Part shown: positions 2,587 through 33,166 of the stretch, one piece after another
How the letters are laid out: every line of letters starts with the position of its first letter
Position numbering within the stretch: position 1 is the stretch's first letter
Assembly (NCBI GenBank): GCA_009785335.1
Contig: WQWM01000025.1
Coordinates: forward strand, 1-34,276
Direction: 5' to 3'
DNA from: Oscillospiraceae bacterium
Lineage (GTDB): Bacteria; Bacillota; Clostridia; Oscillospirales; Acutalibacteraceae
Length of the DNA: 34,276 nt
Notes under the pieces: generated by a model
Databases searched by the model: none
What the model was told of the DNA's origin: nothing
What the model saw: the letters and a program-made list of their open reading frames with translations, nothing else
Position numbers and translations under genes: made by a program

Positions 2587-3039
2587 ATGGCAAACATGAG
2601 TTCCGAAATAGCCAGAGCTATCCTCGATATGCTCGATCAGGGCGAGTATGCCGAAATTCAGCGCAACGGCTTTGCGCAGCAACTTGGCTGCGCGCCCAGC
2701 CAGATCAACTATGTACTTGCATCGCGTTTTGCGCCCGAAATGGGCTTCATCGTGGAAAGCAGGCGCGGCGGCGGGGGTTACATCCGCATTCGCCGTGTGA
2801 GCTGCGAGCGCGGCGCGGTGTTGCCTGCGCTGGTCAACGCCATCGGCCCGCGATTAGATGAATCCACCATGCGTGCGCATATTGCTAACCTGCACAGCCA
2901 AGACTTAATCAGTGCGCAGGCGGCGCAACTCATGCTTGCTGCGGCCAGCGACGCTGCGCTGCGGGCAATCGAGCGCGGCGTGGACAGAGACACCGTGCGG
3001 GCGAGCGTGTTTAAGCAATGTTTGCTTTCCCAAGCGTAG
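2587..3039 (+). CDS. ctsR: Transcriptional repressor CtsR
   Basis: Class III heat-shock repressor, a dimeric winged-helix protein that senses heat. At 150 aa it has normal family length. The N-terminal HTH is clear (IQRNGFAQQLGCAPSQINYVLASRF, residues about 24-48), followed by the glycine-rich wing with Arg60 and Gly61-64 before YIRIRR. In Bacillus-type CtsR this wing is the thermosensing tip and its arginine is a McsB target. The C-terminal half (about 75-150) is the dimerisation and regulatory domain. Start ATG 2587 follows GAAAGG (2573-2578). It is the first gene of ctsR-mcsA-GNAT-mcsB-clpC and lies just behind its own operator. Confidence 0.96.
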   Translation: MANMSSEIARAILDMLDQGEYAEIQRNGFAQQLGCAPSQINYVLASRFAPEMGFIVESRRGGGGYIRIRRVSCERGAVLPALVNAIGPRLDESTMRAHIANLHSQDLISAQAAQLMLAAASDAALRAIERGVDRDTVRASVFKQCLLSQA

Positions 3040-4603: not shown

Positions 4604-4608
4604 GCAAT

Positions 4609-5135
4609 GGGGCTTGCCGCCGAAAGTTTCGATGTCGTTATCCGCTTAAGCCTTGGCTTCTTCCTCGGGAAGGAGCTGGCCGATCTCAGATCGGTCTGAG
4701 GAGGGTTCGCGGAGCGATTGCAACATCTTGGCGAGCACTTTCGCCCGCATCAGCAACCCGACTTCGAGTCGCTCTCGTGTAGGGGCGGCTATTAGCCGCC
4801 CGCAAATTTCAAGGCAAGATAAAGAGTCTAGTCGCTCCGCATCCCTCCCTCACCCACTGCGGTGGGAGCTCCCTCCAAAGGAGAGGAGCTGGGGCTTGCC
4901 GCCGAAAGTTTCGATGTCGTTATCCGCTTAAGCCTTGGCTCCTTCTTCGGGAAGGAGCTGGCCGATCTCGGATCGGTCTGAGGAGGGTTCGCGGAGCGAT
5001 TGCAACATCTTGGCGAGCACTTTCGCCCGCATCAGCAACCCGACTTCGAGTCGCTCTCATGTAGGGGCGGCTATTAGCCGCCCGCAAGTTTCAAGCAAGC
5101 TAAAGAGTCACGGGCGGCAGGTTGCCGCCCCTACA
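4609..5135. repeat. 282-bp-period tandem repeat between the GNAT gene and mcsB
   Basis: Two long direct copies, 4609-4828 and 4891-5109, match at an offset of 282 bp (281 near the end). Each runs from GGGGCTTGCCGCCGAAAG through TATCCGCTTAAGCC, a GGAAGGAGCTGGC hairpin block and TTCGCGGAGCGA to a TGTAGGGG palindrome (4778-4802 and 5060-5084). Between them, 4831-4890 carries a similar hairpin block in reverse orientation. A further palindrome unit in minus orientation (5111-5135) forms a doublet with 5060-5084. The repeat is open in several frames and gives spurious ORFs, one running into mcsB. No gene is seen here. Confidence 0.9.
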
Positions 5136-6248: not shown

Positions 6249-6319
6249 CATAAAAATACCCACGCGAAGCGCATAGGTTTTTTTGGTTCTTTTTTTGCAA
6301 AAAAAGAACAAGAAAGGAG
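6249..6319 (+). repeat. Leader cassette (A/U hairpin plus Shine-Dalgarno) before clpC
   Basis: The segment runs CATAAAAATACCCACGCGAAG, a T-rich tract, then GTTCTTTTTTT (6286-6296) and AAAAAAAGAAC (6299-6309), a perfect 11-bp inverted repeat, followed at once by AAAGGAG (6313-6319) and the clpC ATG. Closely similar cassettes stand before ribF and the 32070-32999 hydrolase. Just upstream (6204-6243) is another repeat found elsewhere in the window (CCTGCGGTGGGGCTCGATCG, then CTTCGCTGTGTTCTAT). Confidence 0.8.
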
Positions 6320-6324
6320 CAACC

Positions 6325-8763
6325 ATGTCCACCTATCGTTTTAATGGCTACACCGAAAAAGCCAACCAAGCCATGAATTTAAGCATCGAAGCCGCCGAAA
6401 AACTCGGCCACACCTTCATCGGCAGCGAGCACATTTTGTTGGGTCTGCTGCGTCAAAGCGACGGCGTTGCGCACTCGGTGCTGGCTGCACGCAAAGTGAG
6501 CGAACAACAAGTGGAAGACACCCTGCGCGGCTCAACCAGTGCGGGCACACCCACCGTGCTTTCGCCCGCCGACTTCACCCCGCGCACCAAGCATATTCAA
6601 CAGGAGGCCTTAGCCCTCGCCCGCTCAGCAGGCAGCCAAGTGGGCACCGAGCACCTGCTGCTTGCCCTGCTGCAACTGCGCGACGGCGCGGCGGTGAGCC
6701 TCTTAGCCCGGCAAAACGTGCTCGCACAAGACCTCGTCAGCGACATTCACCGCGCCATCAAAAATCCCAAGAGCGAAACCAGCACAGGCAAAGCCAACAG
6801 CGAAAGTGCCACCCCCACGCTCGACCAATTCGGCCGCGACCTCACCCACATGGCACAGCAGCACAACATTGATCCCGTGATTGGCCGCGACCCCGAAATC
6901 GCCCGTGTCATGCAAATCCTGTGCCGCCGCAGCAAGAATAATCCCGTGCTCATCGGCGAGCCGGGTGTGGGCAAAACTGCCGTGGCAGAAGGCCTTGCGT
7001 TGCGTATCGCTTCCGGTGAAGTTCCAGAGTTATTGCGCGATAAACGTGTGTTCAACGTCGACCTCACTGGCATGGTCGCCGGCACAAAATATCGCGGTGA
7101 CTTTGAAGAACGCATTAAAACCGCCTTAGATGAAGTGCGTCGTGCGAAGAATGTGATTTTGTTCATCGACGAACTACACACCATCATCGGTGCAGGCGCA
7201 GCCGAAGGTGCAACTGACGCTGCAAACATCCTCAAGCCATCCTTAGCGCGCGGCGAGCTGCAAGTCATCGGCGCCACCACGCTTGATGAATACCGCAAGC
7301 ACATTGAAAAAGACGCAGCCCTCGCCCGCCGCTTTCAACCGGTAACCGTGGACGAACCCACCGAGGCCGAAACCATCGAAATCCTGCACGGCCTGCGCGA
7401 TAAATACGAAGCACACCACAAACTACGCATTACGGATGAAGCCATCGTCGCCAGCGTCAAACTCAGTGCGCGCTACATCGGCGACCGCTTTTTGCCCGAC
7501 AAAGCCATTGATCTAGTGGACGAAGCCGCCTCACGCGTGCGCTTGCGCGCCTTCACCCCGCCGGATGAAGTGAAAGCCTTGGAGGATCAACTGCGCGAAC
7601 TCGAGCAGAAAAAGAACGAAGCCGCGCTGTCGCAGGAGTTTGAACAAGCCGCGCAATTGCGTGACGAAGAGCGCAAGCTGCTGCAAGAGCTTGAGCAGCA
7701 TAAACAGGCATGGCAAGAGCAAAGCAGCCAAGCCAAAGGTGAAGTCACTGCCGAGGAGATCGCCTGCATTGTGGCACAGTGGACGGGTATTCCCGCCATG
7801 CAGCTCACGCAAGCAGAAAGCTGCCGCCTGCTTGCCTTGGAGGATGAACTGCATCGCAGAGTAGTCGGCCAAGATGAAGCCGTCACCGCTATCAGTCGCG
7901 CAATTCGCCGTGGACGCGCTGGACTAAAAGATCCCAAACGACCCACAGGCTCGTTTCTCTTCTTAGGCCCCACCGGCGTGGGCAAAACCGAATTGTGCAA
8001 AGCCTTGGCCGCCGCCATGTTTGGCGACGAGCAAGCCATGGTTCGCCTAGACATGAGCGAGTATATGGAAAAACACACGGTGTCGCGCCTTGTGGGTTCA
8101 CCGCCGGGTTATGTGGGCTACGATGAAGGCGGGCAGCTCAGCGAGCAAGTGCGCCGCAAGCCTTACTGCGTTGTTTTGTTTGACGAAATCGAGAAAGCAC
8201 ACCCCGAGGTCTTCCACATCCTGCTGCAAATTCTTGAAGATGGCCGCCTGACCGACGCGCAGGGCCACGTGGTGGACTTCCGCAACACGGTGGTGATTAT
8301 GACCAGCAACCTGGGGGCCTCAAAGATCACCAAACAAGGCGGCGGCATTGGCTTTGGCGATGACGGCAACGCAGCCGCCACGCAGCAAAAAATCAAAGAT
8401 GCTGTCATGAGCGAACTCAAGCGCAGCCTGCGCCCGGAATTCCTCAACCGTGTGGATGACATCATCGTGTTTCATCAGTTGGATAAACCGCAGATTCGCG
8501 AAATCGCCGGGCGCATGTTGGCACAGGTGCAGCAACGCTTGGCCGAGCAAGACATTCACGTCACTTTTGATGAAAGCGTCACAGACTTGATGGCCGATGC
8601 AGGCTTCGACCCGGTATATGGCGCGCGGCCACTGCGCCGTGCCATTGTGCACCAAGTGGAAGATACCCTGAGCGAACGCCTGCTGGAGGGCGCGATTGCG
8701 CCGGGCGGCAGCTATGTTTGCCGTGCAGAAAACGGTGTGGTAGTAGTGAATCCTCCAGAATGA
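6325..8763 (+). CDS. clpC: ATP-dependent Clp protease ATP-binding subunit ClpC
   Basis: Hsp100 unfoldase that feeds McsB-marked substrates to ClpP. It is 812 aa, a full-length family member. The N domain occupies about 1-145 with two Clp repeats ([14 protein letters not shown] and [11 protein letters not shown]). AAA1 has Walker A GEPGVGKT near residue 212 and Walker [14 protein letters not shown]-like middle domain lies around 425-455 ([14 protein letters not shown]). AAA2 has Walker A GPTGVGKT near 549, Walker [12 protein letters not shown] and a C-terminal sensor-2 GARPLRRAI. Start ATG 6325 follows AAAGGAG. It closes the operon; the following palindrome may act as terminator. Confidence 0.97.
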
Positions 8764-8769
8764 CTCGCG

Positions 8770-8800
8770 TGTAGGGGCGGCTATTAGCCGCCCGTTTTTA
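8770..8800 (+). terminator. TGTAGGGG palindrome acting as likely terminator after clpC
   Basis: Seven bases after the clpC stop, GGGCGGC-TATTA-GCCGCCC is followed by GTTTTTA, the form of a rho-independent terminator. It is a copy of the window-wide palindrome, so a mobile repeat seems to serve as an operon end here. Confidence 0.6.
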
Positions 8801-8840
8801 TGGTATGCCTAAAAAATAAATCTGAAAAATTTTAAAAAAA

Positions 8841-12007: not shown

Positions 12008-12829
12008 CTAAATGCTTTGCATGTCTTGCATAATCTGCGCCTTCAGTTCATCCATGCCAGCAAACTTACGCTCCTCACGGATAAACCGCAGCAACCGCAC
12101 CGGCACCCGTCGGCCATATAAATCCCCCACAAAGCCAGGAATGTGCGTTTCGCTCCTCGGTGCCATTGCTTCGCCAACAGTCGGACGTAGACCGATGTTC
12201 GTCACCGCAGGCCACCATGCGCCATCCACAAAGGCGCGCGATACATAAACCCCGGCCTTGGGCACGCAATATCCCGGCGCAAAGTGCTGGTTAAGCGTTG
12301 GCGTGCCCAGCACACGCCCCAAGCGAGCACCATGCTTCACAGGAAAATCATAACCGAACGCACGCCCAAGCATGGCATTCACTTGGTCAATTTCTCCCTG
12401 TTGCAACGCCGCACGAATGCGCGAAGACGACACTGTTTCGCCGCGATACACAATTTGCGGCACAACAGTAAGGCTCATGCTATAGCTCTCGCACAGTTCG
12501 CGTAATATTGTCGTGTCTCCCGCTGCCTTTGCGCCAAATCTAAAGTTGTGCCCGCAGCGCAGCCCCGTCGCGCCATAGCGTTCACGCAGCAAAGCGATGA
12601 ACTCGGCAGGTGGCAGTGCAGCCAATTCAGCAAAATCAACATGCAGCAACGCAAGCCCTGCGGCCTGCAAACGCACAGCGCGTTCGTCGTTGGTCAGCAG
12701 TTGTGGCGGCGCTTGTCCGCGCAGCGTTACCTGCGGGTGCTCGCTAAACAACAGCACGGCAGTTGCCCCCCGCAACACCGCGCGGTGCGCAGCGTGCAGG
12801 CCGTCAAAACTGCCTAGTGCGATGGTCAT
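12008..12829 (-). CDS. ribF: Bifunctional riboflavin kinase / FAD synthetase
   Basis: Makes FMN from riboflavin and FAD from FMN. The N-terminal FAD synthetase part has LGSFDGLHAAH (nucleotidyl-transferase HxGH-like site), GHNFRFGAKAAGD and SSSRIRAAL. The C-terminal flavokinase part has RLGRVLGTPTLN, KAGVYVSR and VTNIGLRPTVGE. At 273 aa it is slightly short for the family (commonly just over 300) but all signatures are present. Start ATG 12829 follows AAAAGGAG, which belongs to a leader cassette like that of clpC. A run of small membrane genes follows in the same operon. Confidence 0.92.
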   Translation of the reverse strand: MTIALGSFDGLHAAHRAVLRGATAVLLFSEHPQVTLRGQAPPQLLTNDERAVRLQAAGLALLHVDFAELAALPPAEFIALLRERYGATGLRCGHNFRFGAKAAGDTTILRELCESYSMSLTVVPQIVYRGETVSSSRIRAALQQGEIDQVNAMLGRAFGYDFPVKHGARLGRVLGTPTLNQHFAPGYCVPKAGVYVSRAFVDGAWWPAVTNIGLRPTVGEAMAPRSETHIPGFVGDLYGRRVPVRLLRFIREERKFAGMDELKAQIMQDMQSI

Positions 12830-12837
12830 GGTGGCTC

Positions 12838-12970
12838 CTTTTCTGTTCTTTTTTGAAAAAAAGAACCAAAAAAACTTTAGTCGCGCTTCGCGGTGGGATT
12901 TTTAATGAACATGTTAAGGTGTTGCCAAGGCCTCCCCCGCCCGGGGTCCCCGGAAATGCTTGCATTTTTG
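12838..12970 (-). repeat. Leader cassette before ribF, with attached longer repeat
   Basis: Read on the minus strand: the CCGCGAAGCGCGACTAAAG block, a T-rich tract, then the inverted repeat GTTCTTTTTT (complement of 12857-12866) and AAAAAAGAAC (complement of 12845-12854), then GAAAAGGAG and the ribF ATG. On the plus strand the repeat continues outward as GGTGTTGCCAAGGCCTCCCC (about 12917) and a CCCGGGGTCCCCGG dyad, as it does at 26480 and 33088. Positions 12970-13074 hold more repeat DNA, including a truncated cassette copy (about 13027-13070), and no gene. Confidence 0.8.
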
Positions 12971-13074
12971 GGGTGGGTCATTGGGGGAGGAAAGCGCGTC
13001 GTAGACGTGCAGGTGGGGGTTACGCGAAGAACCAAAAAACTTTAGTCGCGCTCCGCGCGGGGTATTTTTATGAC

Positions 13075-13212
13075 TTAAAACATCCCGCCCGTTATGATTT
13101 GCCATAGCACATGAAATGGCGCGATCATTGAGTGTTCCACCCCTGCTACCACAATAAACCAAAGCGGAAACGTCAACACTAGACCCACCGTCATCATCAA
13201 AGACTGTAGCAT
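13075..13212 (-). CDS. Micro membrane protein (45 aa) behind the serine hydrolase
   Basis: Start ATG 13212 has TTGGAGG about 7 bp upstream. It begins MLQSLMMTVGLVLTFPLWFI and continues VVAGVEHSMIAPFHVLWQII: one certain membrane helix and an amphipathic tail ending TGGMF. It lies 21 bp after the stop codon of the serine hydrolase gene, in the same direction, so the two are probably cotranscribed. Not recognised as a known family. Confidence 0.65.
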   Translation of the reverse strand: MLQSLMMTVGLVLTFPLWFIVVAGVEHSMIAPFHVLWQIITGGMF

Positions 13213-25326: not shown

Positions 25327-26385
25327 ATGCATATCACCCACTTCACCGCCCAGGCCTTCCGCAACATCACGCGGGGGGAGCTTTCACCATGCCCAGGCGT
25401 CAACGTCATCTTTGGCGAAAACGGGCAGGGCAAAACCAACCTGCTCGAATCCATGTGGCTATTCACTGGCTGCCGCAGCTTCAGATCTACCGACAACCGC
25501 GAATTGATACAACATGTAGGGGCGGATGCAAATCCGCCCGCAACGCAGTTGTCCACTCAATTCATCTCCAACGCACGCGAGCAAACTGCATCCATCGATA
25601 TCAGCCGCCGCCGCACGTTAACCCTCAATGGCTTCGCGCAAGAAACCCCGCGCCGCATGCTCGGCGTGTTTCCCGCAGTCGCCTTCACGCCCGCTACGCT
25701 TGCACTGGCACAGGGCAGCCCCGCCGAACGCCGCCGCTTTCTCGATGTCGCGCTCAGCATGCTCACCCCGGCCTACGCCGTGCGGCTTTCTAAGTATCTC
25801 AAAGCCCTCGCGCAGCGCAATGCCCTGCTGCGCCAGTCCAATCCCGACCTCGACCTCCTCACCACCTGGGACGAAACCCTTGCTCACCATGCCGCACAGC
25901 TCACCGCCGCTCGCCTGAATTACCTGCAGCAGCTCATCCCCGCCGCGCAGGAGTTCTACACCGGCATTTCCGCCGGCCGCGAACAACTGGGCATCGAAAT
26001 CCACTGCACCGGGCATGATTTCGCCAAATCCCGCCAGTCAGACCTGCGCCGCCAAATGACCACCGTCGGTCCACACCGCGACGATTTAATCCTCACGCTC
26101 AACGGCCGCGCATTACGCGACTTCGGCTCACAGGGGCAACAGCGCAGTGCCGCCCTTGCGCTCAAACTGGCCGAGGCCGCCGTGCTGCGCGATACCACAG
26201 GTGAAATCCCCGTTGCCCTGCTCGACGACGTGCTCAGCGAACTCGACGCCCGCCGCCAGCATGACCTGCTGCGTTATCTTGATGGCTGGCAGGTTTTTCT
26301 CACCTGCTGCGAGCCCAGCCACACCCTGCACGGCAGCGCAGGGCGCGTGTTTTGTGTGCGCGATGGTGAAATCGCGCTGCAATAA
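25327..26385 (+). CDS. recF: DNA replication and repair protein RecF
   Basis: SMC-like ATPase that loads recombinase at gaps with RecO and RecR. The 352-aa sequence has Walker A GENGQGKT (residues 30-37), LAQGSPAERRRFLDV, GPHRDDL, the ABC-type signature SQGQQRSAALALKLAE and Walker B VALLDDVLSELDARR. Residues about 63-72 (HVGADANPPA) are encoded by a complete copy of the TGTAGGGG palindrome (25515-25540), with the frame intact. The gene is not beside dnaA, dnaN or gyrB, its usual neighbours. It appears to be translated from a leaderless mRNA. Confidence 0.94.
   Translation: MHITHFTAQAFRNITRGELSPCPGVNVIFGENGQGKTNLLESMWLFTGCRSFRSTDNRELIQHVGADANPPATQLSTQFISNAREQTASIDISRRRTLTLNGFAQETPRRMLGVFPAVAFTPATLALAQGSPAERRRFLDVALSMLTPAYAVRLSKYLKALAQRNALLRQSNPDLDLLTTWDETLAHHAAQLTAARLNYLQQLIPAAQEFYTGISAGREQLGIEIHCTGHDFAKSRQSDLRRQMTTVGPHRDDLILTLNGRALRDFGSQGQQRSAALALKLAEAAVLRDTTGEIPVALLDDVLSELDARRQHDLLRYLDGWQVFLTCCEPSHTLHGSAGRVFCVRDGEIALQ
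25515..25540 (+). repeat. TGTAGGGG palindrome inside recF
   Basis: The unit begins TGTAGGGGCGGATGCAAATC and ends CGCCCG; it is identical to the intergenic copy at 14900-14925. It codes for HVGADANPPA in a region of RecF (after RELIQ) where homologues vary in length and sequence. Confidence 0.93.
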
Positions 26386-26394
26386 TACGCAGAC

Positions 26395-26545
26395 CCTCCT
26401 TGCTACTTTTTTGAAAAAAAGTAGCGCAAAAAACTTCAGCCGCTTCGCGGTGGGATATTTATGAACTGTGTAGGTGTTGCCAAGGGCTCCCCTGTAGGGG
26501 AGCTGGCACGCCGTAAGGCGTGACTGAGGGGTTTCGACATCAATA
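26395..26545 (-). repeat. Leader cassette without a gene, with attached repeat
   Basis: On the minus strand GCTACTTTTTTT and AAAAAAGTAGC form the hairpin, with compensating changes relative to the GTTC/GAAC copies, followed by AAGGAGGG. No start codon follows; the DNA beyond is the end of recF. On the plus side the repeat extends through GCCGCTTCGCGGTGGGATAT to GGTGTTGCCAAGGGCTCC and GGCACGCCGTAAGGCGTGAC. Confidence 0.75.
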
Positions 26546-33002: not shown

Positions 33003-33166
33003 ATCTCTCCTTTTCTTGTTCTGTTTTGAAAAAAGAACCAAAAAACTTTAGTCGCTTCGCGGAGGATTCTTATAGACATGTGGCAGGTGTTGCCAAAGGC
33101 TCCACCGCTTGCGGGGGAGCTGGCACGCCTCGGGCGTGACTGAGGGGGCGTGGAGAGATGCCGCCG
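33003..33166 (-). repeat. Leader cassette before the hydrolase, with attached repeat
   Basis: On the minus strand: the CCGCGAAGCGACTAAAG block, a T-rich tract, hairpin GTTCTTTTTT (33029-33038) with AAAACAGAAC (33018-33027), then AAAAGGAG and the ATG. On the plus side the repeat goes on through GGTGTTGCCAAAGGCTCCAC (about 33087) to GGCACGCCTCGGGCGTGAC, as at 26395-26535. Confidence 0.8.

Follow-up and report, generated by a model that had tools for sequence, protein, structure and literature searches.

The hairpin in front of clpC in a 34,276-nucleotide stretch of an Oscillospiraceae genome (the window; source genome of 2,245,365 bases in 58 contigs, 90% complete) is probably the GTTC end of a short, non-autonomous, MITE/REP-like intergenic repeat that is lodged at gene joints, moves as a unit and acts as an RNA spacer. 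In its compact form, the proposed element would span about 110-160 bp, with a T-run/A-run-stem hairpin at each end, A and T tracts inside and a self-pairing middle. One end would usually be GTTC/GAAC and the other CTAC, TTAC, CAAC, CCAC or TCAC (CTTC in Acetobacteraceae). The hairpins lie either a few bases upstream of a Shine-Dalgarno (SD) sequence or around or just after a stop codon. We propose that the element has spread into gene joints, including operon joints, in a few lineages, and that many of these regions have also accumulated other repeats, such as GTAG-type REPs. Once transcribed, it would probably serve as an RNA spacer or attenuator, so that one message would end in a stem-loop and the next gene would be preceded by another that partly masks its SD, with perhaps weak bidirectional attenuation. 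If this is true, scattered lineages have had their gene joints, also those within operons, reshaped by a simple short repeat, and an end-asymmetry rule is seen in three genomes from two phyla; the spread and tolerance of operon-splitting repeats would become directly testable, and caution would be due before such hairpins are taken for gene-specific riboregulators.

The initial annotation described the clpC hairpin as part of a mobile leader cassette common to clpC, ribF and a hydrolase gene. Inspection of the sequence confirmed all five hairpin copies that it had listed in the window (Table 1). The ATG of clpC lies at 6325, downstream of its hairpin, and those of ribF and the hydrolase gene lie at 12829 and 32999, both on the minus strand. 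The truncated copy belongs to the ribF array. For the copy with the GCTAC/GTAGC stem, the description of the stem was correct but the absence of a gene was not, as the stop codon of a RecF/SMC-type ORF (26383-26385) is 16 nt away. The clpC cluster has the order ctsR, UVR-motif protein, acetyltransferase, mcsB and clpC, and a 206-base direct duplication (98% alike; window 4608-4813 and 4890-5095) lies between the acetyltransferase gene and mcsB. At the gathering score, Rfam reported only a tRNA in the window and no family in six element-bearing loci.

Table 1. Repeat-related features of the window, in order of position.
Feature	Position	Strand	Basis
CGCGAAGCG mini-palindrome, with an A-rich tract on one side and a T-rich tract on the other	6263..6271	+	sequence; upstream consensus of 49 start-facing and 46 stop-facing GTTC-type copies
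Outer T tract (U1) of the clpC-facing end	6278..6284	+	sequence; conserved in start- and stop-facing copies
Terminal hairpin (GTTC type) that faces clpC; each arm has 11 complementary bases; lies in the mcsB-clpC joint	6286..6309	+	sequence, fold; mcsB and clpC by Pfam
AAGAAAGGAG purine tract, including the clpC Shine-Dalgarno	6310..6319	+	sequence; enriched in hairpin genes
GC-rich, REP-like palindrome with a GTAG tag, downstream of clpC; belongs to another repeat family found in these arrays	8763..8801	+	
Repeat array 5' of ribF, two nested units; upstream unit (about 13027-13070) cut off within its hairpin	12826..13075	-	
GTTC-type terminal hairpin facing ribF	12845..12866	-	sequence, similarity search; ribF by Pfam
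Terminal hairpin (GCTAC type); faces the stop of the RecF/SMC-type ORF 25327-26385	26402..26425	-	
GTTC-type terminal hairpin, one stem mismatch, facing the alpha/beta-hydrolase gene	33018..33038	-	sequence, Pfam

The hairpin formed by GGTTCTTTTT and AAAAAGAAC is abundant in the source genome, well in excess of chance. The pattern GGTTCTTTTTN{0,12}AAAAAGAAC has 144 exact matches in 2.25 Mb, 77 on one strand and 67 on the other, compared to none for a reversed-pattern control, and the palindrome TTCTTTTN{0,14}AAAAGAA occurs at 154 places genome-wide compared to 2 in the control. In addition, a genome search with a 150-base query from the ribF copy returned 76 matches at E <= 0.1. The T-run and A-run of the hairpin are constant, and the stem occurs as GTTC, TTAC, CTAC, CAAC, CCAC, TCAC or CACC, with the changes compensated. 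Among 129 T-run/A-run units collected without demanding stem pairing, 119 have all four stem-flanking bases complementary, while re-dealing the 3' arms gave a mean of 42 and a maximum of 58. The stem bases covary and hairpin formation is therefore maintained; the compensated stem change initially seen in one copy is thus borne out and much extended. A related-looking motif, CTTGA-T6-GGTTCTTTTT-..TCAAG-..AAAAAGAAC, was seen at eight loci (L083, L086, L089, L092, L095, L103, L156 and L162); its outer arm is also complementary to the loop, so that a pseudoknot could form.

To relate the hairpins to genes, 179 distinct copies were placed, drawn from stretches chosen for holding hairpins (the window and the first 100 of the 144 pattern places included), with genes called by our own script trained on the long ORFs of the same stretches. 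Of these copies, 75 face a start codon, 102 face the stop codon of another gene and 2 could not be placed. Distances are narrowly distributed: 56 of the 75 start-facing hairpins lie 12-21 nt from the start codon, and 87 of the 102 stop-facing ones lie between -39 and +35 nt of the stop codon. Where stop-facing copies have neighbours on both sides (97), 66 are within 16 nt of the stop, and in 17 the stop codon is inside or behind the hairpin, i.e., the ORF runs into the element. Overall, the facing distance is at most 25 nt in 133 of the 170 copies with neighbours on both sides, compared to 23.6 expected for uniform placement with random orientation and a maximum of 40 in 2000 simulations. Intergenic regions of at least 60 nt are co-directional, convergent and divergent in 104, 24 and 1 cases with a hairpin, and in 47, 5 and 12 cases without (Fisher p 6e-6 for convergent versus divergent), the regions without a hairpin being neighbours of hairpin regions in the chosen stretches. 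The sister genome G010, sampled over about 390 kb, has 13 hairpins that face starts and 13 that face stops, and the corresponding counts are 16, 5 and 1 with a hairpin and 100, 21 and 34 without.

The proposed tie to start codons is accordingly one part of the placement, stop-facing copies being in the majority. Moreover, the outer side of the GTTC copies has the same consensus (an A-rich tract, a CGCGAAGCG-like block, CTAAAG and TTTTTTG) in 49 start-facing and 46 stop-facing copies. Given this likeness, the element is not a dedicated leader; a leader common to three genes is too narrow a description, and a leader-only reading was rejected. A promoter at the -10-like tract CATAAAAAT was set aside, as an A-rich tract occupies this position in both start- and stop-facing copies. 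At four loci (L183, L205, L207 and L213), stop-facing copies are at -38, and the ORFs cross the hairpin and seem to end inside the element. The in-element stop CTTTAG was read directly in L205, and CTTTAA is possible in L183. An ORF end within the element would mean that the element supplies a C-terminal tail and a stop at these apparent cases.

Another possibility is that the hairpin is a cis-regulatory leader, such as a thermosensor or a translational switch, before clpC, ribF and other genes. The built-in SD that the initial annotation had described is upheld in so far as AGAAA(A)GG accompanies hairpin genes: it precedes the start in 39 of 60 hairpin genes and 12 of 215 others, and in 9 of 10 and 14 of 357, respectively, in G010. 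A first test of whether the remainder of the SD is native or came with the cassette (18/22 pairs) gave 5.83 versus 4.33 (sd 0.26) on a set that included pairs with misplaced starts. In a cleaned set of 14 pairs, the observed identity was reached in 181-352 of 5000 shuffles for the last 6-14 nt before the ATG, and in 620-1861 of 5000 for the last 3-5 nt. Before start codons, the element comes with a purine tract, AAGAAAGG, to which its outer T tract can pair, and this pairing is predicted in the fold of the clpC region. Consistent with the masking that had been suggested, the predicted unpaired fraction of the SD has a median of 0.33 in hairpin genes, below both shuffled upstream sequences (0.49) and other genes (0.47), which amounts to modest in silico support.

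Control by temperature, as also suggested for clpC, was not supported. Between 20 and 60 C, predicted SD exposure is nearly flat for clpC (0.22 to 0.28) and ribF (0.00 to 0.04), so that the SD of these two genes is not predicted to open on warming in the physiological range, as that of an RNA thermometer would; for the hydrolase leader, it rises from 0.16 to 0.44. The clpC gene of G010 (protein 96% identical) is preceded by a palindromic GC-rich repeat and lacks the A/T hairpin. No hairpin was found in the 130 upstream bases examined in G002 (ClpC 95% identical), nor upstream of clpC in nine further genus members (ClpC 71-78% identical), where the gap to the next upstream gene, not checked to be mcsB, is 1, 149, 79, 70, 206, 27, 26, 80 and 50 nt. 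A clpC thermosensor was rejected on the basis of the sister comparison and the predicted melting. For a cis-regulatory leader of any kind, the purine tract linked to hairpin genes and the lowered SD access are set against the stop-facing majority with the same upstream sequence, the absence of the hairpin from the sister clpC, the 37 of 46 orthologous edges at which no hairpin was detected in G010 (see below) and the lack of predicted melting for clpC and ribF, and we consider it highly improbable.

The distribution of the hairpin across genomes is patchy. Within the genus (14 genomes), many copies are present only in the source genome (144), G002 (45) and G010 (43), with one each in two others. 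In the class, 2 of 291 genomes match, the source genome included, and the other has 4 copies. A further 19 of 60 genomes match in the family of Gluconacetobacter aggeris, itself included, with up to 236 copies. A contig scan demanding GGAG after the hairpin yielded, among the matches listed, Oscillospiraceae MAGs, Acetobacteraceae/Rhodospirillales and scattered others, and a MAG labelled Williamsia in which the motif looks different. Since near-identical sequence is patchily present in two phyla, its distribution suggests that the element spread horizontally, with convergence as the alternative.

In Acetobacteraceae, the pattern TTTTTTGN{0,2}TTCTTTTTN{0,12}AAAAAGAA has 42 matches in G. aggeris and 63 in Pseudoroseomonas cervicalis, and none in the control. 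Of 22 hairpins in G. aggeris, 15 face stops (10 at 1-16 nt and 5 at 61-128 nt), 5 face starts at 17, 25, 65, 169 and 380 nt, and 2 could not be assigned; regions with a hairpin are convergent in 8 and co-directional in 5 cases, and those without are divergent in 5, convergent in 2 and co-directional in 2. P. cervicalis has 13 start-facing and 10 stop-facing hairpins (8 of the latter at 1-18 nt) and 5 unassigned ones among 28, and its hairpin regions are co-directional in 8 and divergent in 5 cases, against the orientation bias of the source genome. These gene-edge counts are a weak test, with 15 loci per genome and poor gene models in high-GC DNA, and several of the P. cervicalis gene calls look wrong by eye.

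The two ends of an element are as a rule unlike. Of 23 intergenic regions of the source genome with an outward-facing hairpin at each edge, 22 have two different stems. When the same stems were dealt out again, 6.0 pairs were alike on average, and at most one pair in 17 of 5000 trials; with pairs drawn from all copies, the mean was 10.6 and the count did not fall below 3 in any of 5000 draws. A single GTTC end is present in 19 of the 23 pairs, and among the 15 co-directional pairs, the GTTC end is the start-facing one in 11 and the stop-facing one in 1. Inner distances are 63-95 bp (10 pairs), 105-111 bp (5) and 179-538 bp (8), and the longer two-ended regions hold other repeats. This spread of inner lengths counts against the proposed element, as does the fact that 133 of the 179 hairpins are outside the 23 pairs, so that many copies are either one-ended or have another end too decayed for the detector. 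All outward pairs in Acetobacteraceae are CTTC plus GTTC (7 of 7 in G. aggeris and 12 of 12 in P. cervicalis, 15 loci each), with inner distances of 73-76 and 68-71 bp; 8 and 4 hairpins, respectively, are unpaired. At L203 (1541-5445), hairpins lie between consecutive genes beside a phage-capsid-like gene (PF25209); one joint holds six hairpin detections, some of which are one palindrome detected on both strands. These include like-stem CTAC/CTAC pairs, which are exceptions to the rule of unlike ends.

We hypothesise that the two ends stay unlike since matching ends would either collapse into a single long rod or, being direct repeats, be lost by deletion. In 18 elements of the source genome, picked for 50-120 bp between the hairpins, the predicted local hairpin fraction is 0.37 and 0.63 on the two strands, and placing the same stem on both ends in silico reduces it to 0.00, giving one rod. 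In 19 Acetobacteraceae elements picked in the same way, the natural fraction is 0.16/0.24, i.e., mostly one rod despite the unlike ends. Rod avoidance may thus account well for unlike ends in the source genome and poorly for those in Acetobacteraceae.

Bidirectional intrinsic terminators also carry an A tract, a stem and a T tract in both directions, and few of them lie in divergent regions. The present element resembles them in both respects, and could be such a terminator if its A tract, GC stem and T tract act both ways, with the outer hairpins adding a second U tract, and end the transcripts of genes whose stops border it. The 24 convergent hairpin regions compared to 1 divergent region point in this direction, and gene-edge placement with a self-pairing middle would suit it too. 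Terminator-like sites are present at the leuC-leuD joint (2806-2824 and 2917-2929, plus strand), and the Acetobacteraceae copies L328 and L332 have a strong middle stem and fold better than shuffles (on one strand, z is -4.8 for L328 and -4.4 for L332; on the other, it is -2.0 for L328). However, copies are located within apparent operons (mcsB-clpC and leuA-leuC-leuD), right before the next SD and with no room for a promoter, and the GC stem in the source genome, itself short, is separated from the T tract by about 5-6 nt, where an intrinsic terminator would have its T run within about 2 nt. Intrinsic-terminator-like sites in L185 number 11, barely above the 7.1 (sd 2.9) in shuffles. In addition, a terminator would leave the unlike ends unexplained, and the two extra terminal hairpins, the occurrence in operon-like clusters and the high copy number and patchiness set the element apart from such terminators. 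We consider a terminator an unlikely explanation.

Comparison with sister genomes indicates turnover. At 46 orthologous edges in G010 stretches, a hairpin was detected at 9 and none at 37, the latter being an upper bound because the detector misses imperfect copies; the G010 orthologue of L070, for example, was scored as absent and has an imperfect hairpin by eye. Upstream of ribF, an edge outside this set, G010 has a hairpin with one changed stem base, and G002 has none, its ribF directly following a gene that matches the end of the RecF-type gene of the window. Of 55 joints present in both the source genome and G010, the 31 with a hairpin in the source genome have a median gap of 244 nt there versus 118 nt in G010. 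The 24 joints without a hairpin have medians of 63.5 and 17.5 nt, showing that joints without hairpins grew as well. Thirteen hairpin joints of less than 60 nt in G010 measure 99-560 nt in the source genome. In a leuA-leuC-leuD-leuB-like cluster (HMGL/LeuA_dimer, Aconitase, Aconitase_C and Iso_dh by Pfam), leuC and leuD overlap by 4 nt in G010 and are 171 nt apart in the source genome, with TTAC and GTTC hairpins at the edges, and the leuA-leuC joint carries another two-ended copy. Most orthologous edges differ by 10-20% between the compared species, and G010 and G002 are too distant to read target duplication from filled and empty sites.

These comparisons also bear on an explanation in which the element does not move as a unit: palindromes would arise at gene edges and be copied by gene conversion or template switching, and arrays would grow by recombination. 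Stem type and filler do differ at some edges with a hairpin in both species (L065, L183 and L190 versus G010), and truncated nested units are present. Tight joints, moreover, have kept the stop of the first gene and the SD of the second, for which plain insertion needs a long target duplication. Conversely, leuC-leuD, repeat-free in G010, carries a complete two-ended element in the source genome, and the inner length is uniform (68-76 bp) in the two Acetobacteraceae genomes. We regard copying in place as somewhat unlikely and prefer movement as a unit. The mobility claimed initially is borne out as regards copy number and patchiness (144 copies; many copies in 3 of 14 genomes in the genus, matches in 2 of 291 in the class; none detected at 37 of 46 edges), with movement itself presumed. 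L186 and its counterpart in G010, L301, share a 57-base leader that has a TATAAT-like box. This leader is bordered by an A/T hairpin in the source genome and by a GC-rich repeat of another kind in G010, and the two positions agree to within 1-2 bases; the edge is thus conserved and the edge repeat is not.

More tentatively, the element could represent an undescribed class of mobile element common to Clostridia and Alphaproteobacteria, with two unlike hairpin ends, that installs itself exactly between coding sequences; tight operon joints would be split in this way, with the upstream stop retained and the ribosome binding site still functional, and the unlike ends would prevent collapse into one rod and mark left and right. 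Searches with five element sequences as text strings found no paper, within a limited literature coverage that includes few subscription journals.

Among known repeats, MITEs are short, repeated, without an ORF and bounded by inverted ends, all of which applies to two-ended copies and not to one-ended ones. The anatomy is MITE-like as well: A and T tracts lie inside the outward-facing hairpins, whose spacing is 63-111 bp in 15 of the 23 source-genome pairs and 68-76 bp in 19 Acetobacteraceae pairs. Correia elements (neisserial mosaic elements) are also counted among MITEs and small interspersed repeats. BOX, RUP, SPRITE and ERIC-type small repeats are short, structured, clustered and nested, and some are located in operons, according to PMC3049150. 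The present element differs from all of these in that it is bounded by hairpins whose stems are unlike, and in that these ends are tight against the starts or stops of genes.

REPs, REPINs and BIMEs are described in PMC3733652 as high-copy short palindromes, mostly between co-directional or convergent ORFs, that are near or overlap coding ends and supply stops. The present hairpins are likewise high-copy short palindromes at coding ends with a REP-like location, rarely divergent in either the source genome (104/24/1 versus 47/5/12) or G010 (16/5/1 versus 100/21/34). A stem-loop behind a stop could slow the last ribosomes or protect the message end; according to PMC12306157, E. coli REPs reduce translation when a stop codon is less than 16 nt away. 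By contrast with REPs, the hairpins are A/T-stemmed, are also present before starts and are paired with unlike stems. Neither end of the palindrome has a GTAG/CGTC tag: the consensus of the outer flank is TTTTTTG, and that of the gene-side flank is mostly AA, AG, AC or GC. Membership of the REP family was rejected for lack of the tag.

The source genome does contain GTAG palindromes and Y1 genes like those of REPs and their RAYT transposases (Y1, IS200/IS605-type). Palindromes with a GTAG tag, a REP feature, are among the GC-rich repeats filling the arrays, and there are four matches above cut-off to the Y1 transposase (PF01797), the only transposase family searched. No A/T hairpin is present at three of the four Y1 loci (L351-L353, 3.3 kb each). 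The Y1 genes at these three loci (around 1300-2100; contigs C5 and C11) lie between inverted GTAG palindromes, an arrangement that resembles RAYT genes with their REPs. At the fourth, L350, GTAG palindromes were seen on the left side only of the examined flanks. This locus has two A/T hairpins (952-977 and 2411-2436). Each directly follows a neighbouring gene's stop and neither is at the Y1 gene, and the first of them shares an intergenic region with the Y1 gene.
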